DNA of 64,000 bases from Cepaea nemoralis (lineage: Eukaryota > Mollusca > Gastropoda > Stylommatophora > Helicidae). Under the pieces are notes generated by a model. It was given only the letters and a program-made list of their open reading frames with translations, ran no database searches and was not told where the DNA came from. Positions 11,746 through 40,765 of this stretch are shown piece by piece; the first letter of the stretch is position 1, and every line of letters begins with the position of its first letter. The DNA lies in assembly GCA_014155875.1 (NCBI GenBank), contig JACEFZ010003502.1, forward strand, positions 62,001 to 126,000, read 5' to 3'. The position numbers and the translations under genes are program-made.

Positions 11746-12244
11746 CTTCACAAACTTTTCACTTTCGCTGACCGACATACAATTTTCCTTTTGCACCTGG
11801 GACCCGTGCCGTTAAAAAAAAAAAAATTTTCTCCTTGTATTCTTTCAGCTGTATGTTGATTTCTTGGCAAGATTACGCTCAGTAGGTTGCCATTGCTTTC
11901 TGGACCTCAATATACATTTTAATATAAATATAATATGTAACGTAATTGTGGGTATTGTCCCGGTGTGCTAAATACTGCTGCATAATATTATTGGATGACG
12001 GAGATTTATTTAATGGTGGTCCCATTTTCATGAGTAACAATTTTTAGAGATTTACAGATAAAAAAAATGTTTCAAATGTCAACACTACATTTAGATCTTC
12101 TTGTAAAGGTGTATATACTCGCATACATCGTGACATATGTCTGGGTTCAATGACAGTAAGGAGAGTGACCTTAGTAACAATGCTAGTACATAAACAAGTT
12201 CACGAGGTAAAATGGGACGGGGAGTTAGTCCCCGGAGGGTGCAA
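11746..12244. other. Non-coding, with dispersed repeat F fragment
   Basis: 11830-11910 contains a fragment (GTATGTTGATTTCTTGGCAA, then GATTACGCTCAGTAG) that recurs at 28410-28515, 29135-29260 and 37815-37945. It behaves like a short interspersed repeat with an A-rich tail on the minus strand. The remaining sequence shows no feature. Confidence 0.55.
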
Positions 12245-12664
12245 ATGAGAGTTTAGTCGTTTAGTCGTTTTAGTCGTTGGATCAACATCACGGCAAACGG
12301 GGTTAACCCCTTAAGTGCTCCGTTTTTCTCCTAACTCAAACCTGAGTCTGGAGAAACTCAGCTCAATGCACGAACTCCGTAGCAACGGCGAGGATCCTGA
12401 AATACTTTGGGTAGATTTTTAACTCGAAATTTTGCCCGGGCAGCGCCGTTAGTCTACTCTTTTTCGATTTCCAACTGCCAAGGGATTTTTTACGTGCGCA
12501 ACAATACACACGGGTGTCCGATCTCACTAACCAGAGACCAGGGGAAATTTTATTACTGGAAATCCAGGTGGATTAATTAAATAAATCTCGGTCCTCACCG
12601 GGGCCTGAACCCGGGACCTCCAGCACTCGAGGTGGGCACCATACCTCGAGACCACTCAGCCCCC
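12245..12664 (-). mobile_element. tRNA-derived SINE (family 2), copy 1
   Basis: On the minus strand the head near 12664 reads GGGGGCTGAGTGGTCTCGAG (A-box region) and GGTCCCGGGTTCAGGCC (B-box region). A conserved body of about 330 bp follows and ends in a TTTAGTCG tail repeat near 12250. Other copies lie at 38275-38688, 60340-60668 (head truncated) and a piece at 32526-32600. Confidence 0.8.
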
Positions 12665-12982
12665 TAAATGAGAGTTCAGTGATGGAAGGGGCAGTTGAGG
12701 AGAAGTCAGCTGGCTAATGTAATTTATGGGGCAGACAATTGAGCTGGGGGGTAGTGTTGTGTGGAGCCTAGGGAAGGCTGCAAGAACGGAAATATGACAG
12801 TGAAAACATTGTCGGGAACAGTGAAAGTTGAGATCCCGAGAGGGTCGGAAGGACAGTTGAGTTTGGGACACGACAGGAGGAGGTCGGTGGTCTGGGATCG
12901 TGAAGAATAGGGGAGGTAGTGATAGAAATCACCCTGTGTTTTTCAGTGATAGGAATTCTGAGACTAATGATTAAAGACTGAG
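12665..12982. other. Host-segment flank left of the giant palindrome
   Basis: About 320 bp with no gene, shared almost base for base with 38689-39015. It is useful as flanking anchor: the paralogous copy continues uninterrupted through the insertion point. Confidence 0.75.
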
Positions 12983-12988
12983 CCCGTT
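12983..12988. other. Target-site duplication CCCGTT (left) of the giant palindrome
   Basis: CCCGTT directly precedes the element end AGTAGTATATAG and recurs at 26332-26337 directly after CTATATACTACT. The paralogous empty site GAGCCCGTTTATCAG has one copy (39016-39021). A 6-bp duplication with AG...CT ends is the Maverick/Polinton pattern. Confidence 0.93.
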
Positions 12989-13060
12989 AGTAGTATATAG
13001 GGTCTCTAGGAGTCGCAATGAGGCATAAAATACCTCATATACAAAGAATAAAGAAGGAGG
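12989..13060. repeat. Left terminus of the palindrome
   Basis: Begins AGTAGTATATAGGGTCTC. A short stem-loop lies 40-60 bp inside (TGAGGCATAAAATACCTCA, imperfect dyad). The mirror terminus is 26260-26331. In protein-primed elements the terminus is the replication origin; that role is inferred here. Confidence 0.7.
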
Positions 13061-14499
13061 ACCCATGAGGACCCGCATTTTTTAGTAAGCTCAAAGAAGG
13101 GGAGTGGGGGAACATAATTTATGCATAATCGATTGGTGTGCGCCGGCTGTTACGGGTTGATGTATTAGTATCTTTGGTAAGATCGGCGAACATCAGTGAG
13201 CAAAAAGTCGATATTGCCGGCAGGTGTATATTAGTGTCGGGGTCGAGGGAGGTCGCTGGTGCCATCTGTTTTTAATTAAGGGCGGTGTCGGAATAAAATA
13301 ATAAGGCAAAGAACGATGTGTGGGGTGGGTTGGTAAGTGGTGAAAGATGGGGTGGGGATGCGTAGATGGTCATAGTGGGATATCACCAATGTGTAACTGC
13401 GGTGTCTAGTGGGTTCCCTACCTGGCAACAGGTTCGAATCTCACTGTGTGGTTGGTGTGTGCAGGGTCGAGTATGTAACGGGGCTAGGTTATATCATTGG
13501 TGATTCGAATCACGCTCCGGGTCGATAAGGGTGTCCACCCTAGGCGGATCTTTCTAGGAGTATATTAAGACGTAAATTTATAACAATGGTGTCTAGTTGC
13601 GGCCATAGAACTTGACAGGTTCGAGTCCTACTGTGTGGTGGGATAATAATGGTAGTGGAGGAGTATGTAACGGAGCCAGGTGGTGTCATGGGTGGTTCAA
13701 ATAATGCGGCTGGTTGATAACTATACCTAACATAGGCGCCAGAGAAACGAATCCCGCTGTGTGGGGAATCTGTTAAAGTAACATCGGTGTCACATATCTT
13801 TGTTAAGGTTGGTTTACAATATCTGTGACCAAAATATCAATATTGTCAGCAGGTGTATGGTAGCAAAAATAGTGTATATTGTAAATTTGTTGTGTTGGCG
13901 ACAGTTGGTACTATTAATTATATCACCAGTATATGTTAACAAAGGAGAGCTCGCTTGAATCGACCGAGGCGGGAGAGGTTACCTGACCCGTGATTTACTC
14001 TATAAGGCCCATAGTACCAGTTTTCCTATAGCGGTTATTAGTGATCTGTAGAGACCTGTAGTGGTTTATGCCCTATCATTACACAGTATAAAGGAAAATC
14101 TTTAAAAAAAAAGTCAAGATGGCGGCTAGTACTAGTAGTGGTGGGTATGGCTTAGTGATATTCGTTGTTAAGGAGTGGGTGAGTTGTGAAAGGGGTAGAT
14201 AATTGCATTCGAACCACTATCATCATGCAGAGTCAGCTCGTTAAAGGAAATTCTTGAAGAAAAAATAAAAAAAAAAAAAAAAAAAAAGAGTAAAGATTGT
14301 CCTCCATGTCGTCGTGGGTGTCGGGCTGGAAGCAGGTCGACCCTGATGGTGGCGTAATTTCATAACACTTAAACAACATGACCACTAACTTTTCTATATC
14401 GCCGCCAACCTATGTGCAGGCCTCCATCCTTTGAGATGAGTCTGCTTGAGGCTTCTGGCGGCAGAGTGACTTGTGAAGCAAACAAACCGATGTGTGGCT
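13061..14499. repeat. Non-coding outer arm with tRNA-promoter-like repeats (left)
   Basis: No credible gene. Two diverged units of about 200 bp (about 13381-13580 and 13583-13790) each carry an A-box-like TGTCTAGT(G/T)G and a B box (GGTTCGAATCT at 13431-13441; GGTTCGAGTCC at 13618-13628, a perfect consensus match), then GAGTATGTAACGG. A third weak B box (AACGAATCCCGCTGTGTGG) lies near 13754. Larger units also repeat: GATATTGCCGGCAGGTGTAT near 13213 resembles 13846 onward. They could be pol III promoters for small RNAs or SINE-derived debris. Poly(A) runs occur at 14104-14112 and about 14262-14286. Confidence 0.55.
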
Positions 14500-14612
14500 T
14501 ACAACCAATCAGGGTGTTTGGTAATTGATCCACATTTTATGTTAGATAATCACTGATTGGCTGGCAACTACTGTGGGCGGGGCTTAATTTATGTAATATA
14601 TAACCAATTCAC
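14500..14612 (+). promoter_or_regulatory. CCAAT/GC-box/TATA promoter-like region (left arm)
   Basis: Within about 110 bp there are two CCAAT elements in opposite orientation (AACCAATCAGG near 14501, TGATTGGCTGG near 14552), a GC box GGGCGGGG (about 14575-14582) and a TATA-like AATATATAACC (about 14596). The order points right, with a predicted start near 14625. It would transcribe across the decayed Bcl-2-like gene in antisense towards the C2H2 gene, so it may drive the C2H2 gene through a leader. The mirror is 24708-24820. Confidence 0.6.
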
Positions 14613-14712
14613 CTAACTCTCACTCACTTTGTGGTTTACAGAAGAAGGACGAATGATCGAGTCTTCAGTTTTGTGGTTATTCAACTGCTATTTGCCTTCA
14701 AGTGTGGAAAGG

Positions 14713-15107
14713 TTACCAGGCACCCGTTTGTCTCAGTATCAACGGACTATCAACCATACATGCACCTACAACTTTAGTGGTTCTGTCTTCCAGTTCTTGG
14801 AAAAGCTCAACTGCCTTGTAAGAAATATCAATCAGCTTCTTACCCAGACGCATCCCAAGTGTAAACAACATCATTATTCTGCCATAGTTTACAACACCAG
14901 CGGCAAAGATTTCATCACCGATTGAAACAAAGACTGGTACAAATTGTTCGGGTTGATACCGCATACTAAGCTAGTGAACATTGCATCTTGTTGTTTGGGT
15001 ATTTGGCGGCCTAAACTAGTCAACGTCGAGTTATCAACCATTGGTGAATTGTAGAAACTAATTATATTCAACGCCATATTCAGAGGCTCGGTGTGAACAA
15101 GTTTCAA
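14713..15107 (-). pseudogene. Decayed second Bcl-2-like gene (left arm)
   Basis: Two overlapping minus-strand frames (15107-14889 and 14964-14713) each match part of the intact Bcl-2-like protein at 18955-19416. The second frame includes the BH1-type NYGRIMMLFTLGMRLGK. Breaks seen: an in-frame stop five codons before the alignable start, no ATG there, and a frameshift near 14945-14955. The end lacks most of the BH2-type motif, stopping just after a GAW. The same breaks occur in the right arm (24213-24607), so decay came before palindrome formation, or conversion has kept the arms alike. It would not make a full Bcl-2 fold. Confidence 0.75.
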
Positions 15108-15161
15108 GTCGAGTGTTGCTTATCTCTCTATCAACTCGTTAGCGTACGGGCCTAAAAAAAG

Positions 15162-15989
15162 ATGTCTAGTAGGCTAGCATCTCAGAACCACTTATGTGCA
15201 ACTTGTGGGAAAGGTTTCACTGATGCAAGTAATCTTCGTCGCCATATTCGGACCAGTCACAGTACAAAGACTCGTGTATATTCGTGTCAAACTTGTGATC
15301 ATAATTTTAACCGGAAAGACAATCTACAACGTCACATTACAAAAGAACACGCAACACCAGGAGCATCATCCAGCGTAATACCAACAGAAACGTCAACACC
15401 TTTTTCACCAACAGTGCGTAAGAGACCAGCGGCTACCAATAGTGATATGACAAGCAGGAAGAAGAAGAAGAACACTAAACAAAACGAAAACGCCGAACCA
15501 GTCAGCGACACACAACACAAGGATGAAGCGGCATCTCTACACACGCTACCAGATGATGTTAGACAAGTATACACCGACAACTGGAGTAGTATCAAAACAC
15601 ATAACAAGATCAACACATATATGTCTGTCTATACATTTTTTATTAGTCCACAGACACAGCACCCTAAAGACTGGACAGATACCTTGTACAAGCTCTTTAA
15701 CACTCAAAAGAGCATATTCAAAATCAATTTTAGTTATCACGTAGTCCTTAGGCACATCGAAACACAAGCTCTTCGCTTCTACCACGCATCATTCAATAAC
15801 GCTTCTGTCTTAGAAATTCCACAACTAATCCGAAACAGACATAACTTTGACGAGTTTATCAAAACAGTACACGGACACGATATTCTTACATACGCTATGC
15901 AACAACGTCCAAATACCAAATACACTACAGAGACGATTCCAGCTATAAGTTTTTATCTCTATCATATCCCAGAATTATGTCTCGTTTAA
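15162..15989 (+). CDS. Two-finger C2H2 zinc-finger protein (left arm)
   Basis: 275 codons from a genuine ATG. There are two classical C2H2 fingers: Cys12/Cys15/His28/His33 and Cys42/Cys45/His58/His63, with H-X4-H spacing. A Ser/Thr/Pro-rich linker with basic patches RKRP (86-89) and RKKKK (99-103), likely nuclear import signals, follows. The C-terminal domain of about 145 residues (from DDVRQVYTDNW) is globular and unknown to me by name. From memory it resembles a domain after C2H2 fingers in many proteins encoded near Maverick-like elements in cnidarians, fish and molluscs. It starts 55 bp from the decayed Bcl-2-like gene on the other strand. A polyadenylation signal AATAAA lies at about 16144. 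Probable role: DNA-binding regulator or replication accessory of the element. Confidence 0.82.
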   Translation: MSSRLASQNHLCATCGKGFTDASNLRRHIRTSHSTKTRVYSCQTCDHNFNRKDNLQRHITKEHATPGASSSVIPTETSTPFSPTVRKRPAATNSDMTSRKKKKNTKQNENAEPVSDTQHKDEAASLHTLPDDVRQVYTDNWSSIKTHNKINTYMSVYTFFISPQTQHPKDWTDTLYKLFNTQKSIFKINFSYHVVLRHIETQALRFYHASFNNASVLEIPQLIRNRHNFDEFIKTVHGHDILTYAMQQRPNTKYTTETIPAISFYLYHIPELCLV

Positions 15990-16239
15990 TAAATAACCAC
16001 AGGTTTATGACCAACGTTCGACACCATTGTACATGGTGTGTATATGAGCATACTATGTATAACATCCCATATTGCATCATCCATTTTGTGTACTGATATT
16101 ATGCTTCATTTTATTTTTGTAAAATTTACTGGAAATACTGTAAAATAAACAATTATATGTATTATAATTGCGTTCACTTGTTGGTTTTTATTGTTGACGG
16201 TGCATATGCGTGTCGTGTGATGAGCGGGTGTTACATGTT

Positions 16240-16978
16240 GATGGGCAATTCAAGAAATATCTCAAACAAACTTATAAATATATCGACCAAATAGGAAAAT
16301 GTGTTAAACAAAGATGAAAACTATGGGTCAAATAAAGAAAACAAATTTTCAAAGAAGCTTATAAAAAATAGGAAATCATGCTAGTCAAACTAATAAAAAA
16401 AGGGTGGTCAAATACAGAAATATCTCATCCGAACTTATAACAAGCAAGACAATATAATAGTAAAATCAAGAAATATTTCGACCGAAGTAATACAATAGAC
16501 AGAACGATGGACAAACTTATAAATATTTCATTCAAACTTATAAAGACTATGATAAAATGTTATCCAAATCAAATAACAGGCTGACCAAACTTATAATTAG
16601 CTCATCCAACCTCATAAATAGTAGGAAAATTTGTTAGCCAAATAGGCAAAATATTGGTCAGATACACAAATATCTCAATCAAACTTATAAAAAGTAGTAG
16701 AAAAGGCTAGTCAAACTAATACAAATGGTGGCAAAATACATAAATATTTCAACAAAACTTATAAAAAGTAGGAAAATTGTAAGTCAAATGTAAAACATAT
16801 GGGGCAAATAGGAAATCATATTAACCAAATAGGAAAAATATCGCTCAAACTTATAAATATATCGACCAAATAGGAAAATGTGTTAACCAAAGATGAAAAC
16901 TATGGGTCAAGTAAAGAAAAAAATGTCAAAGAAACTTATAAAAAATAGGAAACAATGATAGTCAAACTAATAAAAAAT

Positions 16979-17009
<31 letters not shown>

Positions 17010-18740
17010 TGGTCAAAGACAGAAATATCTCATCCGAACTTATAACAAGCAAGAAAATATACTAGTAAAATCAAGAAATATGTCGACCGAAGTAATACAA
17101 TAGGCAGAACGATGGACAAACTTATAAATATTTCATTCAAACTTATAAAGACTATGATAAAATGTTATCCAAATCAAATAACAGGCTGACCAAACTTATA
17201 ATTAACTCATCCAACCTTATAAATAGTAGGAAAATTTGTTAGCCAAATAGGCAAAATATTGGTCAGATACACAAATATCTCAACAAAACTTATACAAAGT
17301 AGTAGAAAAGGCTAGTCAAACTAATAAAAATGGTGGCCAAATACATAAATATCTCAACACAACTTATAAAAAGTAGGAAAATTGTAAGTCAAATGTAAAA
17401 AATATGGGGCAAATAGGAAATCATATTAACCAAATAGAAAAAATATCGCTTAAACTTATAAATAGCGCGTCCAAACTTATAAAAAGTAGGAAAATGTGTT
17501 AGCCGAATGGTGAAAATATTGCTCAAATTAAGAATCATGTCGACCGAAGTAGGAAAATACGTGATTCAATGTATAAAAACGTTGGGTAAATACAGAAAGA
17601 TGTCGACCAAACTGATACAAATCTCCGCCAAACTTATGAAATGTAGGAACATTTGTTAACCAAAAGGGGAAAATGTCGGCCAAATACAGAAATATCTCCA
17701 CCAAACTTATGAAAAGTAGGAACAGTTGTTAACCAAATAGGCAAAATATTGGTCAGATACACAAATATCTCAATCAAACTTATAAAAAATAGGAAAAAAG
17801 GCTAGTCAAACTAATAAAAAAGGTGGCCAAATACATAAATATCTCAACCAAACTTATAAAAAGTAGGAAAACAATAGTAGCCAGCTCAACTAAAAGGCTG
17901 ACCAAACTTATAAATATATCATCCAAACTGACCAAAGTAATAAACATATTGGGTAAATATAGAAATATGTCGACGAAACTTTTACAAATCTCCGGTAAAT
18001 TTATGAAAAATAGGAAATTGTGTTAACTAAATGTGAAAAAAAATATCGACCAATCCCATAAAAGGTAGGACAATTTCTTACCCAAATGTGAAAAAGATCG
18101 GCCAAACTTATAAATATCTCATCCAAACTTATAAAAAGTAGGAAAACAATATTAGCCAAATCAACTAAAAGGCTGACCAAACTTATAAATATATCATCCA
18201 AACTGACCAAAGTAATAAAAATATTGGGTAAATATAGAAATATGTCGAACAAACTTTTACAAATCTCCGGTAAATTTATGAAAAATAGGAAATTTTGTTA
18301 ACTAAATGTGAAAAAATATCGACCAAACTTATAAAAAGCTCTGCCAAACTTATGAAAAGTAGGAAACTTTGTTAACCCACGCGAAGAAAATTATTAACCA
18401 AAGATAGAAAATATCGATCTAAATAGGAAACTTTGTTAGCAAAATGGGAAAAATATTGGCCAAGTAAACACATAGTTCAACCAAACTTATAAATATGTCA
18501 TCCAAATTCACAAAAAATAGGAAAATTTGTCGACCAAGTAAGAAAGTATATTACCAAAACTGGAAAAGATACTAATCAAAGTGAGAAAAATACCAACCAA
18601 ACTAAGAAATATGTATGGTAAAGTAGGAAAAAAGTTGACCAAAGTAATAAATACGCTAGCCAAATGAAGAAATATTAACCAAAAGGAGAAAAAATTATAG
18701 CAAACTAAGAAATTTGCTTTCACAACTTGTCGAATTGCCC
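16240..18740. repeat. AT-rich degenerate tandem-repeat block (left arm)
   Basis: About 2.5 kb built from variants of CCAAACTTATAAAAAGTAGG joined to AAAATTTGTTAACCAAATAGG and AAATATCTCAACCAAACTT. Longer units are superimposed: 16265-16850 repeats at 16848-17440 (about 585 bp), and 17885-18010 repeats at 18170-18300. A poly(A) run sits at about 16979-17006. No gene; the few frames of 60-85 codons in it are low-complexity by-products. Possible roles are spacer, origin-linked AT-rich DNA or a matrix-type element. Confidence 0.85.
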
Positions 18741-18954
18741 TACCAACTACCCCATTTGCTTTCACAACTTATCACATTGACCAATTAACCTCACAAATTT
18801 CCCACTGACTCTCACAATTTTACCACTTGCCATTACAACGTATCGACTCTCTCTCACAATTTACCCAAAGGGGTTTACTATAGGTATTATATAGCCGCAA
18901 GCAAGCGCTCTCACACTCACAAGAATAACGAAATACTGGGATTTAAGCTTGTTT

Positions 18955-19416
18955 TTAATCAATTTCTTTGTTTGCAGTCAAAGTATAGAAATTCCGCCAA
19001 CCACCTTGTTGTTGAAGTATCCAAGGACTTAGTTTATCAGCCATATATTCGCCTACAGATTTAGCGAAGTCCTCTTCCAGGTCTTGGACATTCACATCGG
19101 CGTTGTAAGAATTATCAACCAGATGCTTACCCAGACGCATGCCAAAGGTAAACAGCATAATTATTCTCCCATAGTTGATGACGTTATCACCAAAGAATTC
19201 ATCACTGACTAAAACAAAGACTTGGAAAACATGTTCGGGCTTGATACTGTCTTCTAGTCTCGTGAACAACACAGATTGTTGTTTGGCTATTTGACCGACT
19301 AAACCAGACAACGTCGAGCTATTTGCCTTTTTGGAATTGTAGGAACTAATAATAGTCAGCGCCATATTCACCATCTCGCTATGAACTTGTTTCAAGTCAA
19401 TCTTTGCTTGTGTCAT
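18955..19416 (-). CDS. Bcl-2-like apoptosis regulator (left arm)
   Basis: 153 codons from ATG. Residues about 73-92 (EFFGDNVINYGRIIMLFTFG) fit the Bcl-2 BH1 motif, with NYGR in place of NWGR. Residues 130-143 (SPWILQQQGGWRNF) fit BH2. A possible BH3-like amphipathic stretch lies around 37-55. There is no hydrophobic C-terminal anchor, so it is probably cytosolic. The length is near that of small viral Bcl-2 proteins. By family, such proteins block mitochondrial cell death by binding BH3 ligands; adintoviruses and several large DNA viruses carry them. The right-arm copy (19909-20370) is identical. This gene faces away from the palindrome centre, with about 210 bp of arm plus the 72-bp spacer as possible shared promoter. 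Confidence 0.85.
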   Translation of the reverse strand: MTQAKIDLKQVHSEMVNMALTIISSYNSKKANSSTLSGLVGQIAKQQSVLFTRLEDSIKPEHVFQVFVLVSDEFFGDNVINYGRIIMLFTFGMRLGKHLVDNSYNADVNVQDLEEDFAKSVGEYMADKLSPWILQQQGGWRNFYTLTANKEID

Positions 19417-19626
19417 TATTATACTGATAGCTAACGTTCATCAAAAAATGTCTAGCAGTCAAACTGCTGATCGATTATTGTGAAACGGTGCAAAGTGGTC
19501 AAAATGGATAATAACATAATACTTGTATAAAGAGATGGACTCATTTCTTCTGGTTGGTCAAATTACCCAACCTACTGGAGATAAAACGGTTGTCACCGAA
19601 ACCACTAGACGCGTGTTTTAGACAAG
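19417..19626. promoter_or_regulatory. Presumed promoter region of the left Bcl-2-like gene
   Basis: 210 bp between the Bcl-2-like ATG and the spacer. The minus strand has a TTTATAC box about 115 bp upstream of the ATG, and CACGCGTCTAGTGGTTTCGG nearer the centre. With the mirror copy it would form a divergent promoter pair firing outward from the centre of the palindrome. No functional evidence. Confidence 0.4.
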
Positions 19627-19698
19627 TTGAATGTTCTTGTAAAACTTTACTTTTTAAGTTTTAATTAACAGTGACCATACTGATCGATAATCACATCC
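19627..19698. other. Unique 72-bp spacer at the palindrome centre
   Basis: The only sequence not duplicated in the element. The left arm ends GTTTTAGACAAG (19626), and CTTGTAAAAC occurs 9 bp into the spacer, nearly the complement, so the arm end can fold on itself. The right arm starts CTTGTCTAAAAC (19699). That short inverted repeat could have seeded the template switch that copied the arm back on itself. Confidence 0.7.
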
Positions 19699-19908
19699 CT
19701 TGTCTAAAACACGCGTCTAGTGGTTTCGGTGACAACCGTTTTATCTCCAGTAGGTTGGGTAATTTGACCAACCAGAAGAAATGAGTCCATCTCTTTATAC
19801 AAGTATTATGTTATTATCCATTTTGACCACTTTGCACCGTTTCACAATAATCGATCAGCAGTTTGACTGCTAGACATTTTTTGATGAACGTTAGCTATCA
19901 GTATAATA

Positions 19909-20370
19909 ATGACACAAGCAAAGATTGACTTGAAACAAGTTCATAGCGAGATGGTGAATATGGCGCTGACTATTATTAGTTCCTACAATTCCAAAAAGGC
20001 AAATAGCTCGACGTTGTCTGGTTTAGTCGGTCAAATAGCCAAACAACAATCTGTGTTGTTCACGAGACTAGAAGACAGTATCAAGCCCGAACATGTTTTC
20101 CAAGTCTTTGTTTTAGTCAGTGATGAATTCTTTGGTGATAACGTCATCAACTATGGGAGAATAATTATGCTGTTTACCTTTGGCATGCGTCTGGGTAAGC
20201 ATCTGGTTGATAATTCTTACAACGCCGATGTGAATGTCCAAGACCTGGAAGAGGACTTCGCTAAATCTGTAGGCGAATATATGGCTGATAAACTAAGTCC
20301 TTGGATACTTCAACAACAAGGTGGTTGGCGGAATTTCTATACTTTGACTGCAAACAAAGAAATTGATTAA
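19909..20370 (+). CDS. Bcl-2-like apoptosis regulator (right arm)
   Basis: Inverted duplicate of the gene at 18955-19416, with the same 153-residue protein and the same BH1-type (73-92) and BH2-type (130-143) motifs. Its ATG is 211 bp from the spacer. Both copies are intact. See the left-arm entry for function; identity of the two shows either a very recent duplication or continuing conversion between arms. Confidence 0.85.
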   Translation: MTQAKIDLKQVHSEMVNMALTIISSYNSKKANSSTLSGLVGQIAKQQSVLFTRLEDSIKPEHVFQVFVLVSDEFFGDNVINYGRIIMLFTFGMRLGKHLVDNSYNADVNVQDLEEDFAKSVGEYMADKLSPWILQQQGGWRNFYTLTANKEID

Positions 20371-20584
20371 AAACAAGCTTAAATCCCAGTATTTCGTTAT
20401 TCTTGTGAGTGTGAGAGCGCTTGCTTGCGGCTATATAATACCTATAGTAAACCCCTTTGGGTAAATTGTGAGAGAGAGTCGATACGTTGTAATGGCAAGT
20501 GGTAAAATTGTGAGAGTCAGTGGGAAATTTGTGAGGTTAATTGGTCAATGTGATAAGTTGTGAAAGCAAATGGGGTAGTTGGTA

Positions 20585-23080
20585 GGGCAATTCGACAAGT
20601 TGTGAAAGCAAATTTCTTAGTTTGCTATAATTTTTTCTCCTTTTGGTTAATATTTCTTCATTTGGCTAGCGTATTTATTACTTTGGCCAACTTTTTTCCT
20701 ACTTTACCATACATATTTCTTAGTTTGGTTGGTATTTTTCTCACTTTGATTAGTATCTTTTCCAGTTTTGGTAATATATTTTCTTACTTGGTCGACAAAT
20801 TTTCCTATTTTTTGTGAATTTGGATGACATATTTATAAGTTTGGTTGAACTATGTGTTTACTTGGCCAATATTTTTCCCATTTTGCTAACAAAGTTTCCT
20901 ATTTAGATCGATATTTTCTATCTTTGGTTAATAATTTTCTTCGCGTGGGTTAACAAAGTTTCCTACTTTTCATAAGTTTGGCAGAGCTTTTTATAAGTTT
21001 GGTCGATATTTTTTCACATTTAGTTAACAAAATTTCCTATTTTTCATAAATTTACCGGAGATTTGTAAAAGTTTGTTCGACATATTTCTATATTTACCCA
21101 ATATTTTTATTACTTTGGTCAGTTTGGATGATATATTTATAAGTTTGGTCAGCCTTTTAGTTGATTTGGCTAATATTGTTTTCCTACTTTTTATAAGTTT
21201 GGATGAGATATTTATAAGTTTGGCCGATCTTTTTCACATTTGGGTAAGAAATTGTCCTACCTTTTATGGGATTGGTCGATATTTTTTTTCACATTTAGTT
21301 AACACAATTTCCTATTTTTCATAAATTTACCGGAGATTTGTAAAAGTTTCGTCGACATATTTCTATATTTACCCAATATGTTTATTACTTTGGTCAGTTT
21401 GGATGATATATTTATAAGTTTGGTCAGCCTTTTAGTTGAGCTGGCTACTATTGTTTTCCTACTTTTTATAAGTTTGGTTGAGATATTTATGTATTTGGCC
21501 ACCTTTTTTATTAGTTTGACTAGCCTTTTTCCCTATTTTTTATAAGTTTGATTGAGATATTTGTGTATCTGACCAATATTTTGCCTATTTGGTTAACAAC
21601 TGTTCCTACTTTTCATAAGTTTGGTGGAGATATTTCTGTATTTGGCCGACATTTTCCCCTTTTGGTTAACAAATGTTCCTACATTTCATAAGTTTGGCGG
21701 AGATTTGTATCAGTTTGGTCGACATCTTTCTGTATTTACCCAACGTTTTTATACATTGAATCACGTATTTTCCTACTTCGGTCGACATGATTCTTAATTT
21801 GAGCAATATTTTCACCATTCGGCTAACACATTTTCCTACTTTTTATAAGTTTGGACGCGCTATTTATAAGTTTAAGCGATATTTTTTTCTATTTGGTTAA
21901 TATGATTTCCTATTTGCCCCATATTTTTTACATTTGACTTACAATTTTCCTACTTTTTATAAGTTGTGTTGAGATATTTATGTATTTGGCCACCATTTTT
22001 ATTAGTTTGACTAGCCTTTTCTACTACTTTGTATAAGTTTTGTTGAGATATTTGTGTATCTGACCAATATTTTGCCCATTTGGCTAACAAATTTTCCTAC
22101 TATTTATAAGGTTGGATGAGTTAATTATAAGTTTGGTCAGCCTGTTATTTGATTTGGATAACATTTTATCATAGTCTTTATAAGTTTGAATGAAATATTT
22201 ATAAGTTTGTCCATCGTTCTGCCTATTGTATTACTTCGGTCGACATATTTCTTGATTTTACTAGTATATTTTCTTGCTTGTTATAAGTTCGGATGAGATA
22301 TTTCTGTCTTTGACCACCATTTTTTTTTTTATTTTTTTTTTATTTTTTATTAGTTTGACTATCATTGTTTCCTATTTTTTATAAGTTTCTTTGACATTTT
22401 TTTCTTTACTTGACCCATAGTTTTCATCTTTGGTTAACACATTTTCCTATTTGGTCGATATATTTATAAGTTTGAGCGATATTTTTCCTATTTGGTTAAT
22501 ATGATTTCCTATTTGCCCCATATTTTTTACATTTGACTTACAATTTTCCTACTTTTTATAAGTTTTGTTGAAATATTTATGTATTTGGCCACCATTTTTA
22601 TTAGTTTGACTAGCCTTTTCTACTACTTTTTATAAGTTTGATTGAGATATTTGTGTATCTGACCAATATTTTGCCTATTTGGCTAACAAATTTTCCTACT
22701 ATTTATGAGGTTGGATGAGCTAATTATAAGTTTGGTCAGCCTGTTATTTGATTTGGATAACATTTTATCATAGTCTTTATAAGTTTGAATGAAATATTTA
22801 TAAGTTTGTCCATCGTTCTGTCTATTGTATTACTTCGGTCGAAATATTTCTTGATTTTACTATTATATTGTCTTGCTTGTTATAAGTTCGGATGAGATAT
22901 TTCTGTATTTGACCACCCTTTTTTTATTAGTTTGACTAGCATGATTTCCTATTTTTTATAAGCTTCTTTGAAAATTTGTTTTCTTTATTTGACCCATAGT
23001 TTTCATCTTTGTTTAACACATTTTCCTATTTGGTCGATATATTTATAAGTTTGTTTGAGATATTTCTTGAATTGCCCATC
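20585..23080. repeat. AT-rich degenerate tandem-repeat block (right arm)
   Basis: Mirror of 16240-18740 (TTTATAAGTTTGG/TTTTCCTAC variants). Small differences from the left arm are visible, for example in the T/A run near 22320-22350 and two codon changes in the low-complexity frame at 20560-20817 versus 18508-18765, so the arms are not a perfect computer copy. Confidence 0.85.
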
Positions 23081-23330
23081 AACATGTAACACCCGCTCAT
23101 CACACGACACGCATATGCACCGTCAACAATAAAAACCAACAAGTGAACGCAATTATAATACATATAATTGTTTATTTTACAGTATTTCCAGTAAATTTTA
23201 CAAAAATAAAATGAAGCATAATATCAGTACACAAAATGGATGATGCAATATGGGATGTTATACATAGTATGCTCATATACACACCATGTACAATGGTGTC
23301 GAACGTTGGTCATAAACCTGTGGTTATTTA

Positions 23331-24158
23331 TTAAACGAGACATAATTCTGGGATATGATAGAGATAAAAACTTATAGCTGGAATCGTCTCTGTAGTGTAT
23401 TTGGTATTTGGACGTTGTTGCATAGCGTATGTAAGAATATCGTGTCCGTGTACTGTTTTGATAAACTCGTCAAAGTTATGTCTGTTTCGGATTAGTTGTG
23501 GAATTTCTAAGACAGAAGCGTTATTGAATGATGCGTGGTAGAAGCGAAGAGCTTGTGTTTCGATGTGCCTAAGGACTACGTGATAACTAAAATTGATTTT
23601 GAATATGCTCTTTTGAGTGTTAAAGAGCTTGTACAAGGTATCTGTCCAGTCTTTAGGGTGCTGTGTCTGTGGACTAATAAAAAATGTATAGACAGACATA
23701 TATGTGTTGATCTTGTTATGTGTTTTGATACTACTCCAGTTGTCGGTGTATACTTGTCTAACATCATCTGGTAGCGTGTGTAGAGATGCCGCTTCATCCT
23801 TGTGTTGTGTGTCGCTGACTGGTTCGGCGTTTTCGTTTTGTTTAGTGTTCTTCTTCTTCTTCCTGCTTGTCATATCACTATTGGTAGCCGCTGGTCTCTT
23901 ACGCACTGTTGGTGAAAAAGGTGTTGACGTTTCTGTTGGTATTACGCTGGATGATGCTCCTGGTGTTGCGTGTTCTTTTGTAATGTGACGTTGTAGATTG
24001 TCTTTCCGGTTAAAATTATGATCACAAGTTTGACACGAATATACACGAGTCTTTGTACTGTGACTGGTCCGAATATGGCGACGAAGATTACTTGCATCAG
24101 TGAAACCTTTCCCACAAGTTGCACATAAGTGGTTCTGAGATGCTAGCCTACTAGACAT
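23331..24158 (-). CDS. Two-finger C2H2 zinc-finger protein (right arm)
   Basis: Inverted duplicate of 15162-15989; the 275-residue product is the same, with both C2H2 fingers, basic patches and C-terminal domain. A polyadenylation signal (complement of TTTATT near 23171) is kept. Confidence 0.82.
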   Translation of the reverse strand: MSSRLASQNHLCATCGKGFTDASNLRRHIRTSHSTKTRVYSCQTCDHNFNRKDNLQRHITKEHATPGASSSVIPTETSTPFSPTVRKRPAATNSDMTSRKKKKNTKQNENAEPVSDTQHKDEAASLHTLPDDVRQVYTDNWSSIKTHNKINTYMSVYTFFISPQTQHPKDWTDTLYKLFNTQKSIFKINFSYHVVLRHIETQALRFYHASFNNASVLEIPQLIRNRHNFDEFIKTVHGHDILTYAMQQRPNTKYTTETIPAISFYLYHIPELCLV

Positions 24159-24212
24159 CTTTTTTTAGGCCCGTACGCTAACGAGTTGATAGAGAGATAA
24201 GCAACACTCGAC

Positions 24213-24607
24213 TTGAAACTTGTTCACACCGAGCCTCTGAATATGGCGTTGAATATAATTAGTTTCTACAATTCACCAATGGTTGATAACTCGACGTTGA
24301 CTAGTTTAGGCCGCCAAATACCCAAACAACAAGATGCAATGTTCACTAGCTTAGTATGCGGTATCAACCCGAACAATTTGTACCAGTCTTTGTTTCAATC
24401 GGTGATGAAATCTTTGCCGCTGGTGTTGTAAACTATGGCAGAATAATGATGTTGTTTACACTTGGGATGCGTCTGGGTAAGAAGCTGATTGATATTTCTT
24501 ACAAGGCAGTTGAGCTTTTCCAAGAACTGGAAGACAGAACCACTAAAGTTGTAGGTGCATGTATGGTTGATAGTCCGTTGATACTGAGACAAACGGGTGC
24601 CTGGTAA
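24213..24607 (+). pseudogene. Decayed second Bcl-2-like gene (right arm)
   Basis: Mirror of 14713-15107 with the same two frames (24213-24431 and 24356-24607), the same frameshift zone near 24370 and the same early end. Shared lesions in both arms date the decay before, or homogenise it after, palindrome formation. Confidence 0.75.
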
Positions 24608-24707
24608 CCTTTCCACACTTGAAGGCAAATAGCAGTTGAATAACCACAAAACTGAAGACTCGATCATTCGTCCTTCTTCTGTAAACCACAAAGTGAGTGA
24701 GAGTTAG

Positions 24708-24820
24708 GTGAATTGGTTATATATTACATAAATTAAGCCCCGCCCACAGTAGTTGCCAGCCAATCAGTGATTATCTAACATAAAATGTGGATCAATTACC
24801 AAACACCCTGATTGGTTGTA
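24708..24820 (-). promoter_or_regulatory. CCAAT/GC-box/TATA promoter-like region (right arm)
   Basis: Mirror of 14500-14612: GGTTATATATT, CCCCGCCC, CCAATCA and ATTGGTT as read on the plus strand. It points left, towards the right-arm C2H2 gene. Confidence 0.6.
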
Positions 24821-26259
24821 AGCCACACATCGGTTTGTTTGCTTCACAAGTCACTCTGCCGCCAGAAGCCTCAAGCAGACTCATCTCAAAGGATGGAGGC
24901 CTGCACATAGGTTGGCGGCGATATAGAAAAGTTAGTGGTCATGTTGTTTAAGTGTTATGAAATTACGCCACCATCAGGGTCGACCTGCTTCCAGCCCGAC
25001 ACCCACGACGACATGGAGGACAATCTTTACTCTTTTTTTTTTTTTTTTTTATTATTTTTTCTTCAAGAATTTCCTTTAACGAGCTGACTCTGCATGATGA
25101 TAGTGGTTCGAATGCAATTATCTACCCCTTTCACAACTCACCCACTCCTTAACAACGAATATCACTAAGCCATACCCACCACTACTAGTACTAGCCGCCA
25201 TCTTGACTTTTTTTTTAAAGATTTTCCTTTATACTGTGTAATGATAGGGCATAAACCACTACAGGTCTCTACAGATCACTAATAACCGCTATAGGAAAAC
25301 TGGTACTATGGGCCTTATAGAGTAAATCACGGGTCAGGTAACCTCTCCCGCCTCGGTCGATTCAAGCGAGCTCTCCTTTGTTAACATATACTGGTGATAT
25401 AATTAATAGTACCAACTGTCGCCAACACAACAAATTTACAATATACACTATTTTTGCTACCATACACCTGCTGACAATATTGATATTTTGGTCACAGATA
25501 TTGTAAACCAACCTTAACAAAGATATGTGACACCGATGTTACTTTAACAGATTCCCCACACAGCGGGATTCGTTTCTCTGGCGCCTATGTTAGGTATAGT
25601 TATCAACCAGCCGCATTATTTGAACCACCCATGACACCACCTGGCTCCGTTACATACTCCTCCACTACCATTATTATCCCACCACACAGTAGGACTCGAA
25701 CCTGTCAAGTTCTATGGCCGCAACTAGACACCATTGTTATAAATTTACGTCTTAATATTCTCCTAGAAAGATCCGCCTAGGGTGGACACCCTTATCGACC
25801 CGGAGCGTGATTCGAATCACCAATGATATAACCTAGCCCCGTTACATACTCGACCCTGCACACACCAACCACACAGTGAGATTCGAACCTGTTGCCAGGT
25901 AGGGAACCCACTAGACACCGCAGTTACACATTGGTGATATCCCACTATGACCATCTACGCATCCCCACCCCATCTTTCACCACTTACCAACCCACCCCAC
26001 ACATCGTTCTTTGCCTTATTATTTTATTCCGACACCGCCCTTAATTAAAAACAGATGGCACCAGCGACCTCCCTCGACCCCGACATTAATATACACCTGC
26101 CGGCAATATCGACTTTTTGCTCACTGATGTTCGCCGATCTTACCAAAGATACTAATACATCAACCCGTAACAGCCGGCGCACACCAATCGATTATGCATA
26201 AATTATGTTCCCCCACTCCCCTTCTTTGAGCTTACTAAAAAATGCGGGTCCTCATGGGT
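24821..26259. repeat. Non-coding outer arm with tRNA-promoter-like repeats (right)
   Basis: Mirror of 13061-14499, including the B-box-bearing units (about 25530-25939 on the minus strand). A few base differences from the left arm are visible, for example TATTCTCC here against GGAGTATA there (near 25757/13560), and AT against GT near 26085/13234. Confidence 0.55.
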
Positions 26260-26331
26260 CCTCCTTCTTTATTCTTTGTATATGAGGTATTTTATGCCTC
26301 ATTGCGACTCCTAGAGACCCTATATACTACT

Positions 26332-26337
26332 CCCGTT
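26332..26337. other. Target-site duplication CCCGTT (right) of the giant palindrome
   Basis: Directly follows the element end ...TATACTACT. The sequence after it (TATCAGCAGACATAGTTGTT) continues the host segment exactly as at 39022 onward. Confidence 0.93.
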
Positions 26338-26812
26338 TATCAGCAGACATAGTTGTTGAATTCGAGACCCAGAGTGGAGGGAATCGATTGAGTCCAGGCC
26401 AAGAGAGTGGCTGATTTATTGTTGCGGTGGATTAGTATTAAAAGGGCATTGAGAGGCAGTGTTCTGTGAGTGTTAGATTGTGATGAAGAGATTTTCTGGA
26501 AATACTGTTCCTGGATGAATATATTACGTGTGTCCGTGTTCATTCGTCATTAAAGGAATTGATGTGCGCAAATTAACTGTTGTTCACTGACTGGTGGATG
26601 TGTGATGCAGTGGTGACTTGTGGTATGAGATAGGTGGCAAGCTCAGCTCCCACTCTACAGTGAGATAGTAGAAACAGTAGAACCTAGACAACGACAAATC
26701 TCACTCTGTTGTCATTGCACATCGTGAGACACCGACAATAACGAACACTGATATAAAATAAAAATAAAATATATCTTGGAAAACGATACAACATCTTACT
26801 TTTTTCAACTCA
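26338..26812. other. Host-segment flank right of the giant palindrome
   Basis: About 475 bp without a gene, shared with 39022-39489. Confidence 0.7.
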
Positions 26813-26884
26813 CGTTGTGGACCGGCAAAGAAGGGCTCGCGGACCGGCACCGGTCCGCGGACCACCACTTTGGGAAGCACTGGT
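26813..26884 (-). mobile_element. hAT-like transposon end with GC-rich hairpin, copy 1
   Basis: On the minus strand it begins CCAGTGCTTCCCAAAGTGG, close to the CAGNG-TTCCCAAA start of many hAT-family terminal repeats. The inner part CGCGGACCGGCACCGGTCCG is a strong hairpin. Only one end is visible; a matching opposite end was not found nearby. It sits beside the LINE-D C-terminal part. A copy is at 39490-39567. Confidence 0.5.
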
Positions 26885-26893
26885 ATAGGGAAC

Positions 26894-27410
26894 ATAACAT
26901 GAAAATTAGTATAAATAAAACAGAGGTAATGACTATAACTAAAGAGGAAGAAAAAACAACAATAACAATTCACCTAAACGAACACCCCTTGAGACAAGTA
27001 AAGAGGTTCACGTACTTAGGAAGTGTTATATCATCAAATGGCAAATCAGAAGACGAGATCGAAAAAAAAAGATGCAATAAGGCAAACCAACCCATTGGAC
27101 AAATGGCACCAATACTAAAGAACAAACATGTATCACTAACTACTAAGAAAGCACTTTACAACACAATTTTCCCACCAACTCTATGTTACCAATGCCAAAC
27201 CTGGACAATGACAGAAAAAGAGAAAAGAAAATCACAAAAGCAATGAGATTCCTGGGAAGAATACTCAACGTATCAAGAAGAGATAAGATCAGAAATGAAG
27301 AAATCAGGACTAACGTGGGGGTTATAGCTGCGCTAGATTTTATTAGAAGGCAACACGTCACATGGTTTGGCCATGCAAGTAGGTTACCAGTGTACCACAA
27401 CAAGCAATGA
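26894..27410 (+). pseudogene. LINE (family D) RT C-terminal part, copy 1
   Basis: Frames at 26894-27246 and 27240-27410 give the post-catalytic region of a LINE RT: NMKISINKTEVMTI, RFTYLGSVISSNGKSEDEI, TLCYQCQTWTMTEKE, then MRFLGRILNVSRRDKIRNEE and TWFGHASRLP. One frameshift lies near 27235. It is the continuation of the RT palm at 11460-11745, separated by a SINE and the giant palindrome. Confidence 0.72.
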
Positions 27411-27643
27411 TGTACAGACCAGATGGAAGCATAGGAAGAGGCCGACCACGTAAACGATGGACGTAGTGAATAACAGAGTCCATGGGAATATCGATACGTG
27501 AAGCCCATAAGCGGACACTCTCCCGCGATTTATACGTCACCTCGACACCGCAAGGTACAAGAGGAACATGATGAGATGAGATGAGATCCCACACTTTAAT
27601 AACATTAAGAAAGAAATGAGAAGACTGAATATTAACATGTTAG

Positions 27644-28020: not shown

Positions 28021-28027
28021 ACACTTT

Positions 28028-28135
28028 ATTAGAGACTTTATTACCAAACGTTTGGTAATAATGAGAGATTTTATTACCAAACGTTTGGTAATAATTCCGT
28101 ACATTATTCCCAAACGGCTGGTCAAGTGACGTTTA
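28028..28135. repeat. ACCAAACGTTTGGT palindromic array (left)
   Basis: Two perfect dyads centred on ACCAAACGTTTGGT, each extended by TTATT/AATAA, then the asymmetrical TTCCCAAACGGCTGGTCA. The inverted counterpart GACCAGCCGTTTGGGGAA begins near 29425, so the arrays at 28028 and 29395 face each other around a 1.3-kb block. This looks like the terminal repeats of a foldback-type element. Confidence 0.72.
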
Positions 28136-37735: not shown

Positions 37736-38274
37736 ATTTTCCTTTTGCACCTGGGACCCGTGCCGTTAAAAATTTTCTCCTTGTATTCTGGAATTTTATA
37801 TGACCTCAATATTTGTTTTTTTTTTTTGCATATCCTTTACAGGACATCGCTGTCAACACCAGCATCTTTTAGCTGTATGTTGATTTCTTGGCAAGATTAC
37901 GCTCAGTAGGTTGCCATTGCTTTCTGGACCTCAATATACATTTTAATATAAATATAAGATGTCACGTAATTGTGGGTATTTTCCCGGTGCGCTAAATACT
38001 GCTGCATAATATTATTGGATGACGGTGATTTATTTAATGGTGGTCCCATTTTCATGAGTAACAATTTTTAGAGATTTACAAATAAAAAAAAAATGTTTCA
38101 AATGTCAACACTGCATTTAGATCTTCTTGTAAAGGTGTATATACTCGTATACACCGTGACATATGTCTGGGTTCAATGACAGTAAGGAGAGTGACCTTAG
38201 TAACAATGCTAGTAGTACATAAACAAGTTCACGAGGTAAAATGGGGCGGGGAGTTAATCGCCGGAGGAGGCAAA
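37736..38274. other. Non-coding, with dispersed repeat F
   Basis: Repeat F lies at about 37815-37945. Otherwise shared with 11811-12240 and featureless. Confidence 0.5.
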
Positions 38275-38688
38275 TGAGAGTTTAGTCGTTTAGTCGTTGG
38301 ATCAACATCACGGCACACGGGGTTAACCCCATAAGTGCTCCGTTTTTCTCCTAACTCAAACCTGAGTCTGGAGAAACTCAGCTCAATGCACGAACTCCGT
38401 AGCAACGGCGAGGATCCTGAAATACTTTGGGTAGATTTTTAACTCGAAATTTTGCCCGGGCAGCGCCGTTAGTCTACTCTTTTTCGATTTCCAACTGCCA
38501 AGGGATTGTAACGTGCGCAACAATACACACGGGCGTCCGATCTCACTACCCAGAGACCAGGGGAAATTTTATTACTGGGGAAGTCCAGGTGGATTTTTAA
38601 AAATAAATCTCGATCCTCACCGGGGCCTGAACCCGGGACCTCCAGCACTCGAGGTGGGCACCATACCTCGAGACCACTCAGCCCCCTA
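38275..38688 (-). mobile_element. tRNA-derived SINE (family 2), copy 2
   Basis: Same structure as 12245-12664 (head near 38687 on the minus strand, TTTAGTCG tail near 38283) with shared flanks. A (G)18-type run follows at about 38766-38783, absent from copy 1, where only GGGGGG remains. Confidence 0.8.
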
Positions 38689-39489
38689 AATGAGAGTACA
38701 GTGATGGAAGGGACAGTTGAGGAGAAGTCAGCTGGCTAATGTAATTTATGGGGCAGACAATTGAGCGGGGGGGGGGGGGGGGGGTAGTGTTGTGTGGAGC
38801 CTAGGGAAGGCTGCAAAAACGGAAAAAAGACAGTGAAAACATTGTCGGGAACAGTGGAAGTTGAGATCCCGAGAGGGTCGGAAGGACAGTTGAGTTTGGG
38901 ACACGACAGGAGGAGGTCGGTGGTCTGGGAACGTGAAGAATAGGGGAGGTAGTGATAGAAATCGCCCTGTGTTTTTCAGTGATAGGAATTCTGAGACTAA
39001 TGATTAAAGACTGAGCCCGTTTATCAGCAGACATAGTTGTTAAATTCGAGTCCCAGAGTGGAGGGAATCGATTGAGTCCAGGCCAAGAGAGTGGCTGATT
39101 TATTGTTGCGGTGGATTAGTATTAAAAGGGCATTAGAGGCAGTGTTCTGTGAGTGTTAGATTGTGATGAAGAGATATTCTGGAAATACTGTTCCTGGATG
39201 TATATATTACGTGTGTCCGTGTTCATTCGTCATTAAAGGATATGATGTGCGCAAATTAACTGTTGTTCACTGACTGGTGGATGTGTGATGCAGTGGTGAC
39301 TTGTGGTGTGAGATAGGTGGCAAGCTCAGCTCCCACTCTACAGTGAGATAGTAGAAACATTAGACCCTAGACAACGACAAATCTCACTCTGTTGTCATTG
39401 CACATCGTGAGACACCGACAGTAACGAACACCGATATAAAATACAAATAAAATATATCTTGGAAAACGATACAACATCTTACTTTTTTT
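38689..39489. other. Host segment containing the empty palindrome target
   Basis: No gene. The sequence runs unbroken through GAGCCCGTTTATCAG, with CCCGTT at 39016-39021, where the first segment copy holds the 13.3-kb palindrome. This gives the pre-insertion allele inside the same window. Confidence 0.9.
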
Positions 39490-39567
39490 CAACTCACGTT
39501 GTGGACCGGCAAAGAAAGGCTCGCGGACCGGCACCGGTCCGCGGACCACCACTTTGGGAAGCACTGG
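39490..39567 (-). mobile_element. hAT-like transposon end with GC-rich hairpin, copy 2
   Basis: Same as 26813-26884; minus strand starts CCAGTGCTTCCCAAAGTGG. Confidence 0.5.
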
Positions 39568-39584
39568 TACAGGAAACATAACAT

Positions 39585-40110
39585 GAAAATTAGTATAAAT
39601 AAAACAGAGGTAATGACTATAACCAAAGAAGAAAACAACAACAACAATTCACCTAAACGAACACCCATTGAGACAGTAAAGAGGTTCGCGTACTTAGGAA
39701 GTGTTATATCATCAAATGGCAAATCAGAAGAAAAAAAGATGCAATAAGGCAAACTAACCCATTGGAGAAATGGCACCAATACTGAAGAACAAACATGTAT
39801 CACTAACTACTAAAAAAGCACTTTACAAAACAATTTTCCCACCAACTCTATGTTACCAATGCCAAACCTGGACAATGACAGAAAAAGAGAAAAGAAAATC
39901 ACAACAGAAACGAGATTCCTGAGAAGAATGTATCAAGAAGAGATAAGATCAGAAATGAAGAAATCAGGACTAACGTGGGGGTTATAGCTGCGCTAGATTT
40001 TATTAGAAGGCAATAAGTCAAATGGTTTGGCCATGCAAGTAGGTTAACAACTAACAGTGTACCACAACAAGCAATGATGTACAGACCAGATGGAAGCATA
40101 GGAAGAGGCC
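39585..40110 (+). pseudogene. LINE (family D) RT C-terminal part, copy 2
   Basis: Same motifs as 26894-27410 but with more indels (the KSEDEIEKK region is shortened, and the FLGRILNV region has lost bases). Confidence 0.65.
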
Positions 40111-40299
40111 GACCACGCAAACGATGGACGCAGTGAATAACAGAGTCCGTGGGAATATCGATACGTGAAGCCCATAAGCGGACACTCTCCCGCGATTTAT
40201 ACGTCACCTCGACACGCAAGGTACAAGAGGAACATGATGAGATGAGATGAGATCCCACACTTTAATAACAGAAAGAAATGAGAAGACTGAATATTAACA

Positions 40300-40470
40300 T
40301 GTTAGGTGTCATGGAGGGACCCCAGATCAAAGAACAGGCAGCAACTCGACCTGGTGCTCACTAAACGCAACAATCTCCGTAATGTACGGTGACTAGCAGC
40401 TATCATAGTGCTGACCGCGACACCGATAACTCACTCGTTTCCAGCAAGGTGAAGATAAAGCATAAGAGAA
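40300..40470 (+). pseudogene. LINE (family C) endonuclease remnant
   Basis: Nucleotide match to 27644-27811 (CTCGACCTGGTGCTCACTAA, then CTATCATAGTGCTGACCGCG) with frame-breaking indels. It stops at AGAATC, where a deletion of about 0.8 kb relative to copy 1 joins it to the inverted LINE-E fragment. Confidence 0.65.
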
Positions 40471-40765
40471 TCCAATTCATTTCTTCCCATAACATGCCAA
40501 AAATATGTTGAATGTCTACGTCTAATGTCTATAATCAGTTTACGATCTACATTTGTTTCTTGAAGGTCTTGTTCATTGGTTTTTCTGTCTGTCCATGGTA
40601 TTCTTTAAATTGTCCTCAGAAACCACATTTCTACAGCCATCAGATGTTATTCAGCTTGACTGCACATTGTCCAAGTTTCACATCCATACAAAAGTATAGG
40701 TTCTATGTAACACCTCAACTCTTTTTCTCGTTTCAATTGAAATCTTTTTATTGGTCAGTATGTTT
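40471..40765 (-). pseudogene. LINE (family E) fragment, inverted, copy 2
   Basis: Matches 28629-28925 (TTTACGATCTACATTTGTTT) with extra indels. It marks the end of the duplicated host segment. Confidence 0.65.

Follow-up and report, generated by a model that had tools for sequence, protein, structure and literature searches.

How does a palindrome of more than 13 kb come to lie at a precisely delimited site in a snail genome, and by what machinery has it been copied? The question is raised by a 64,000-bp stretch of Cepaea nemoralis DNA (contig JACEFZ010003502.1, positions 62,001 to 126,000; hereafter the window) from assembly GCA_014155875.1 (3.47 Gb, 26,579 contigs), in which a palindromic element of 13,343 bp begins with AGTAGTATATAG, ends with CTATATACTACT and is bordered at either side by CCCGTT (Table 1). 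A preliminary description of the window had reported a near-perfect 13.3-kb palindrome with a 72-bp spacer, Maverick-like ends and a 6-bp target duplication, and all of this holds: the arms of 6,638 and 6,633 bp differ by 11 substitutions, one 6-nt poly-A gap and one 1-nt gap (~99.8% identity), and a 6.6-kb inverted repeat of this kind is not chance. The analyses presented here make it probable that the element is a non-autonomous satellite of Polintons (Mavericks), copied as a palindrome by protein priming and inserted by Polinton enzymes.

The flanks of the element are segmentally duplicated within the window (1-12988 and 26332-28965 versus 30502-40770, with main pieces ~94-99% identical). 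Since the element sits in one copy of this duplication only, the other copy supplies an empty site, with which the joined flanks containing a single CCCGTT align gap-free across the junction (whole match 94.5% over 2,649 columns); the insertion was therefore precise and accompanied by a 6-bp duplication. Ends of the AGTAGT type are the commonest end motif of vertebrate Mavericks and, together with 6-bp duplications, are features of these elements (PMC8097293).

Each arm contains only two ATG-initiated open reading frames (ORFs) of at least 100 residues, which encode a 275-aa protein with two C2H2 fingers and a 153-aa protein of the Bcl-2 family, whose best solved relatives are Bcl-xL. The last 160 residues of the C2H2 protein retrieved P0001, a 1,374-aa protein with a DNA_pol_B_2 domain (E-value 6.9e-27; 34 candidates, 5.8-billion database), and in the pairwise comparison (E-value 1e-34, 191 columns) the match covers residues 27-204, ahead of the polymerase. 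The same ORF is 51% identical over aligned columns to the front of the pPolB of a Polinton from the same genome (C2951, see below). It stops where the stand-alone copies in two related elements stop (C447, 331 aa; C3069, 333 aa), while the C2951 pPolB and P0001 continue past that point into the next domain. In a model of the domain built from a two-sequence alignment (predicted local distance difference test, pLDDT, 70.5), the core elements follow the order b-a-b-b-a-b, with short additional pieces; modelling the entire C2H2 protein from its sequence alone gave a poor result (pLDDT 44.7), which was set aside. The fold search with the domain model gave weak matches in the PDB (best E-value 0.017, none below 0.001, TM-score 0.21-0.37), 10 of the 12 top entries being MsDpo4, Dbh, pol kappa or pol eta; the best viral match is a C2H2 protein of Drosophila-associated adintovirus 2 (E-value 6.7e-5), followed by the PolB of a MELD virus (2.3e-3). 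The terminal protein of Polintons (domain D1) is recognized by a PRD1-like TP/LF-PAD fold in which an alcoholic residue, close to a Pro or Gly, lies between the second helix and the last strand. The predicted domain shows this arrangement, and all five aligned proteins read R-P-x-[ST] in the loop expected to carry the priming residue. A conserved Tyr, considered as an alternative linking residue, was dropped because C447 and C3069 carry Phe at its position, whereas P-x-[ST] is kept in all five. By homology, the C2H2 protein is thus a stand-alone terminal protein, and the three stand-alone copies ending at one domain border suggest that the terminal protein alone can be kept.

The preliminary description was accordingly right in listing Bcl-2-like and C2H2 proteins as cargo and wrong in finding no replication gene; it also missed a second, broken Bcl-2 copy in each arm. 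The pair of divergent Bcl-2 and terminal-protein genes is present twice per arm (14617-15320 and 18908-19610). The first pair has a broken Bcl-2 gene and an open terminal-protein gene; in the second it is the Bcl-2 gene that is open, the start of the terminal-protein gene being cut short by an early stop. One open copy of each gene is left per arm. This damage is common to both arms and is therefore older than their last equalization. The ratio of non-synonymous to synonymous substitution rates (dN/dS) is 0.53 for the terminal proteins of C447 and C3069 (331 codons), 0.45 for the Bcl-2 genes of the window element and C992 (153 codons) and 0.58 for the 5' part of the terminal-protein gene of the window element and C2329 (184 codons), modest evidence that both frames were kept.

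The preliminary description also reported no integration or capsid genes. None of 18 ORFs from two Polintons of the same genome, integrases and proteases included, matches the arm at 1e-2; the negative for capsid and packaging genes applies to this ORF set as a whole, in which the capsid and ATPase genes were not pinpointed. Neither Polinton integrase matches the arm at this threshold and no ORF of that kind with at least 100 residues is present in the element, while tblastn of P0001 over the window reported the terminal-protein part only. Neither the complete C2H2 ORF nor the Bcl-2 protein found a match at 1e-3 in protein searches (113 and 7 candidates, respectively); scans of viral contigs revealed no relative and phage records yielded nothing.

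A genome search for like ends with 6-bp duplications, which the preliminary description had proposed, succeeded. AGTAGTATATAG has 697 forward and 571 reverse matches (reversed control: 430 and 587), and among the first 100 of these 1,268 matches we found 17 facing forward/reverse pairs within 25 kb, compared with ~2.9 expected by chance genome-wide. A perfect 6-bp duplication flanks 14 of the 17 examined pairs (the window element, C273, C447, C708, C992, C995, C1755, C1855, C1967, C2004, C2329, C2794, C2951 and C3069), which comprise two decayed Polintons, 11 long-armed elements and one short derivative. The remaining three (C977, C1460 and C1985) were set aside for want of a perfect duplication; inverted arms are present there too. 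C977 and C1985 have AGTAGTATATAG followed by a different continuation, and C1985 contains long unannotated ORFs. The short derivative (C995:30506-34200) measures 3.5 kb, has a perfect ATTGTC duplication and lacks a long inverted repeat.

The Polintons C2951 (15.3 kb) and C1855 (17.2 kb) are bounded by terminal repeats of ~250-340 bp, and both contain pPolB, an integrase (rve) with a chromodomain, an adenain-type protease (Peptidase_C5) and PC4. C1855 encodes, in addition, a Bcl-2-family protein (4.6e-9) in an ORF that lies 11 bases from the start of pPolB and is divergent to it, and its pPolB itself starts with C2H2 fingers. The arms carry this gene pair, which suggests that they originated from the pPolB end of a Polinton; together with the terminal-protein ORF, the pair indicates that the internal sequence of the element derives from a Polinton. 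The proposal that the palindrome is a defective relative of a Polinton or adintovirus inserted as a linear unit is thus supported by its ends, by the Polintons with 6-bp duplications in the same genome and by the front domain of pPolB.

Arms of the long-armed elements are collinear, with identities of 99.8% (window element), 99.8% (C992), 99.2% (C447), 98.9% (C2794), 98.9% (C2329) and 98.3% (C3069), and, in older-looking copies, 95.9% (C708), 95.5% (C273), 91.0% (C1967), 89.8% (C2004) and 87.8% (C1755). The arms of C447 and C708 are separated by long centres with retrotransposon-type ORFs (gag-like in C447; reverse transcriptase, RNase H and rve in C708). A terminal protein was found in 4 of the 11 (the window element, C2329 with a broken frame, C3069 and C447) and a Bcl-2-like gene in seven (the window element, C992, C2794, C2329, C3069, C447 and C273); C708, C1755, C1967 and C2004 have neither gene at the thresholds used, C708 retaining a pPolB fragment. 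Gene content varies, so the common feature is the long inverted arms and not a gene set. The near-palindromes C1755, C1967 and C2004 have short ORFs in common.

That the palindrome itself propagates is indicated by its centre. A 249-bp query spanning it had matches of 96-100% identity at 40 distinct loci, in each case to both strands. The count is a minimum, since only 40 of 355 candidates were scored and all 40 were positive. A query with the first 140 bp of the arm (40 of 431 candidates scored) gave 40 matches, 36 of which form 18 facing pairs 8.3-13.5 kb apart. At six loci (the window, C25705, C16273, C8399, C23255 and C5135) both centre and end matches are present, with the centre at most 38 bp off the midpoint; in the contig C5865 the two lie far apart, at separate places. 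Five centre loci lacked AGTAGTATATAG at the guessed ends; the arm-start search placed the ends of four of them, both being readable in three, while those of C2727 were left unplaced. Six palindromes with the centre of the window element have six different perfect duplications: CCCGTT (window), CGCGAT (C992), ACCATC (C273), GCTGTC (C16273), GTCACA (C8399) and GATATT (C23255). The 72-bp spacer of C992 differs from that of the window element at 5 positions and that of C273 at 4. Occurrence of the same centre at the 40 scored loci argues that the palindrome is the propagating form rather than a one-off defective copy. The different centre of C2794 can be read as this palindrome after an asymmetric deletion at the centre, and the centre of C2329 falls inside the Bcl-2 gene.

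Within the inner 1.1 kb the two arms differ at 2 of 1,127 positions in the window element and at 1 of 1,117 in C992, whereas arms of these two elements differ from each other at 33-36 of 1,117-1,118, and a tree of the arms pairs them by element with support 1.0. The simplest account would be that arms are equalized during replication. Alternatively, the palindrome could propagate in this way while gene conversion in the host chromosome, rather than replication, maintains the likeness of its arms; the data from the young copies fit this too, and we consider it unlikely, though less so than the other alternatives. The arms of C273 differ at 41 of 873 positions, as many as between elements, and the other older-looking palindromes have arms only 87.8-95.9% identical. 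C273 would fit an old insertion and speaks against steady chromosomal conversion, as one weak case, this copy being rearranged.

Two further explanations are each very improbable. One is a cut-and-paste transposon with very long terminal repeats, of the Foldback/Galileo kind, mobilized by an unrelated transposase. Foldback and Galileo have different ends and duplications and encode different proteins; the ends and duplication of the element are of the Maverick type, genes for pPolB and integrase occur in elements with like ends, and a domain of pPolB is present in the arm itself. Among the selected ORFs of the fetched relatives scanned with Pfam, no P-type transposase was noticed. The likeness lies in the very long, internally repetitive inverted arms, as described for Galileo in the available text of PMC3573991. 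Ginger2, another group with 6-bp duplications, has TGTNR ends and RTATAY targets according to the consulted portion of PMC2836005, unlike AGTAGT and CCCGTT in the element.

The other is a defective-interfering dead end, in which each palindrome arises anew by snap-back copying of a Polinton and is inserted once. Palindromic defective genomes of adenoviruses, like the element, are inverted duplications of one genome end. Snap-back genomes of the same design are described for adeno-associated virus (AAV) as far as the excerpt of PMC8235507 goes, and a deletion derivative of the kalilo plasmid with hairpin forms, judged by a title in the references of PMC11071308, is likewise a one-end inverted duplication. 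The different centres of other long-armed elements would suit such an origin too. These known forms are by-products of replication, whereas here the palindrome is integrated at 40 scored loci with one centre and has diverged into lineages, and the centre of C2794 fits an asymmetric deletion of the same palindrome.

It is still less probable that a normal Polinton was inserted first and became palindromic in the chromosome by inverted duplication or gene conversion, in a form that was never replicated. Chromosomal palindromes and arm-to-arm conversion do exist, but both outer ends bear the duplication of one insertion, the common centre occurs with distinct duplications at six loci, and the arms of C273 have drifted apart, so this explanation is already largely refuted. 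Finally, long perfect palindromes are known to arise as artefacts of assembly or library construction, but the chance that one arm was recorded a second time by reading through a hairpin is negligible here. The flanks differ and bear a 6-bp duplication, the joined flanks are matched by an empty paralogous site, the centre recurs at 40 scored loci, distinct duplications are present at the six checked loci, and the arms differ by 11 substitutions.

How closely the end sequence of a palindrome matches that of a Polinton differs between elements. The presence of AGTAGTATATAG in the 13 compared elements follows from the pattern search itself, and only the bases beyond it are informative; ~15 further bases are alike at both ends in most elements, with slight differences in C273 and C708. 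Over the first 50 bases the palindrome C2329 matches the Polinton C2951 at 46 positions, and C2004, C1967 and C1755 match the Polinton C1855 at 45, 42 and 40, respectively, while the other pairings give 24-36. Among elements found by centre or end DNA, C16273 and C8399 begin with AGTAGTAGGAGAG and C23255 begins with AGTAGTAATACAT, both ends being alike or nearly so. These different starts identify AGTAGT as the constant part and indicate one palindrome lineage with several end sequences. Behind AGTAGT, the end sequences of C23255, C16273 and C8399 have changed at both ends together. A joint change of this kind in one lineage is a possible switch of replication origin.

We propose the following scenario for the satellite. 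An end of a Polinton, comprising the terminal repeat and the divergent Bcl-2/pPolB pair, would have been cut after the terminal-protein domain of pPolB and doubled head to head, most likely via snap-back copying of a displaced strand, yielding a linear genome whose two origins are identical. The pPolB of a Polinton could then copy the palindrome by protein priming from either end (the jumping-back idea for the terminal motif comes from PMC8097293), and the displaced strand would fold into one long hairpin in which each arm is copied from the other, so that arms and ends would be kept alike in every round. A Polinton integrase would insert the full-length molecule with a 6-bp duplication, after which the arms would drift apart. 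Priming, hairpin and integrase together would explain the ends, the 6-bp duplications, the likeness of arms and of ends and the common centre. Snap-back birth, priming, hairpin, dependence on a helper, packaging and any benefit from the Bcl-2 protein are what we infer from these data. Intact vertebrate Mavericks measure 12.7-24.6 kb and have terminal inverted repeats of 46-1,447 bp (PMC8097293); the element lies within this size range and differs in its 6.6-kb arms, and we speculate that a 6.7-kb end, once doubled, may regain a length suited to packaging.

Several observations weigh against this scenario. Chromosomal gene conversion could likewise keep arms alike, the sole old copy opposing it being the rearranged C273. 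Of its first 50 bases, the window element has only 26 and 24 in common with the two Polintons; it shares the first 12-13 bases with both, but both were found by a 12-base pattern. A Polinton with the end sequence of the window element itself was not found among the two compared. Both are decayed, with broken pPolB frames and, in C1855, a nested insertion of the long interspersed element type. Seven of the 11 long-armed elements lack a terminal-protein match and four have neither gene, from which it appears that neither is needed by all. The dN/dS values of 0.45-0.58 are only modest, and none of the 11 arm substitutions falls in the terminal-protein or Bcl-2 frames, which is not significant (chance probability 0.09).

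Among known systems, the element shares (AGT)2//(ACT)2 ends, the 6-bp duplication and the terminal-protein domain of pPolB with Polintons/Mavericks and adintoviruses, and a Bcl-2-like gene beside pPolB sequence with C1855; it differs from Polintons in having no polymerase, integrase, protease or capsid ORF. A terminal protein encoded as a separate gene is also found in a Polinton from Stylophora, where, according to the portion of PMC11071308 consulted, the vOTU-polymerase part is present as another gene, which is absent from the element. Judged by titles and the beginnings of abstracts, the literature on palindromic, non-autonomous or defective Polintons did not yield a description of this form.

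Table 1. Coordinates of the element and its features in the window
Feature	Position	Strand	Basis
Whole palindromic element	12989..26331	.	End/arm alignment; exact insertion from empty paralogous site
Target-site duplication CCCGTT, left	12983..12988	.	Flank comparison and empty site
Target-site duplication CCCGTT, right	26332..26337	.	Flank comparison and empty site
Left arm, 6,638 bp	12989..19626	+	Arm alignment
Right arm, 6,633 bp	19699..26331	-	Arm alignment
Non-palindromic centre (spacer), 72 bp; centre and arm edges at 40 scored loci	19627..19698	.	Arm alignment, centre search
Terminal (AGT)2 motif, likely part of origin; mirror at 26326-26331	12989..12994	+	Ends; motif from PMC8097293
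Terminal-protein ORF, 275 aa: two C2H2 fingers and predicted pPolB D1 domain	15162..15989	+	Homology, fold, ORF list
Terminal-protein ORF, right-arm copy	23331..24158	-	ORF list
Bcl-2-family ORF, 153 aa	18955..19416	-	PF00452, 2e-15 for identical right-arm copy
Bcl-2-family ORF, right-arm copy	19909..20370	+	PF00452, 2e-15
Second Bcl-2 copy, broken (two frames, stop), divergent to terminal-protein ORF; mirror ~24201-24607	14713..15119	-	
Degenerate second terminal-protein gene start, early stop, beside intact Bcl-2	19446..19626	+	
AT-rich array, units ~21 and 73/74 bp; mirror at ~20600-23100	16220..18720	+	Repeat analysis
Paralogous empty site: segmental duplication of flanks, element missing	37865..40472	.	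Joined-flank alignment

The AT-rich array lies between the terminal-protein and Bcl-2 ORFs. It recurs in otherwise different elements at ~73-91% identity and may for this reason have a role in the element. The outer arm contains two GGTTCGANTC motifs resembling the B-box of Pol III promoters (13431-13440 and 13618-13627) inside repeats of tRNA-like appearance, which are possibly small RNA genes; the Rfam scan reported no family at the gathering score and the tRNA scan none, and four sub-threshold Rfam matches in the outer arm were put down to chance. Elsewhere in the window, 51834-53769 and 58202-60144 are near-identical (99.1-99.8%) with parts in swapped order, apparently a recent duplication.

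If the scenario is correct, C. nemoralis would harbour a natural satellite system of Polintons, with a role comparable to that of virophages or AAV. Linear DNA viruses are known to give rise to palindromic defective genomes as by-products; in the present case such a form has been repeatedly copied and re-inserted, and decayed Polintons with similar ends occur in the same genome. Going further, we lean, with some reserve, towards a guild of palindromic Polinton satellite viruses with a pair of identical origins each, of which some would be matched to one Polinton lineage and some equipped with a detached terminal protein and a blocker of cell death. They would propagate as giant hairpins in which each arm overwrites the other, and a new end acquired on one arm would thereby pass to its partner, as suggested by the same centre behind different end sequences. 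The divergence of the arms would then offer a clock for insertions, as the divergence of long terminal repeats does for retroviruses, and whether the symmetry of such palindromes is kept by replication or by chromosomal gene conversion becomes a testable question.

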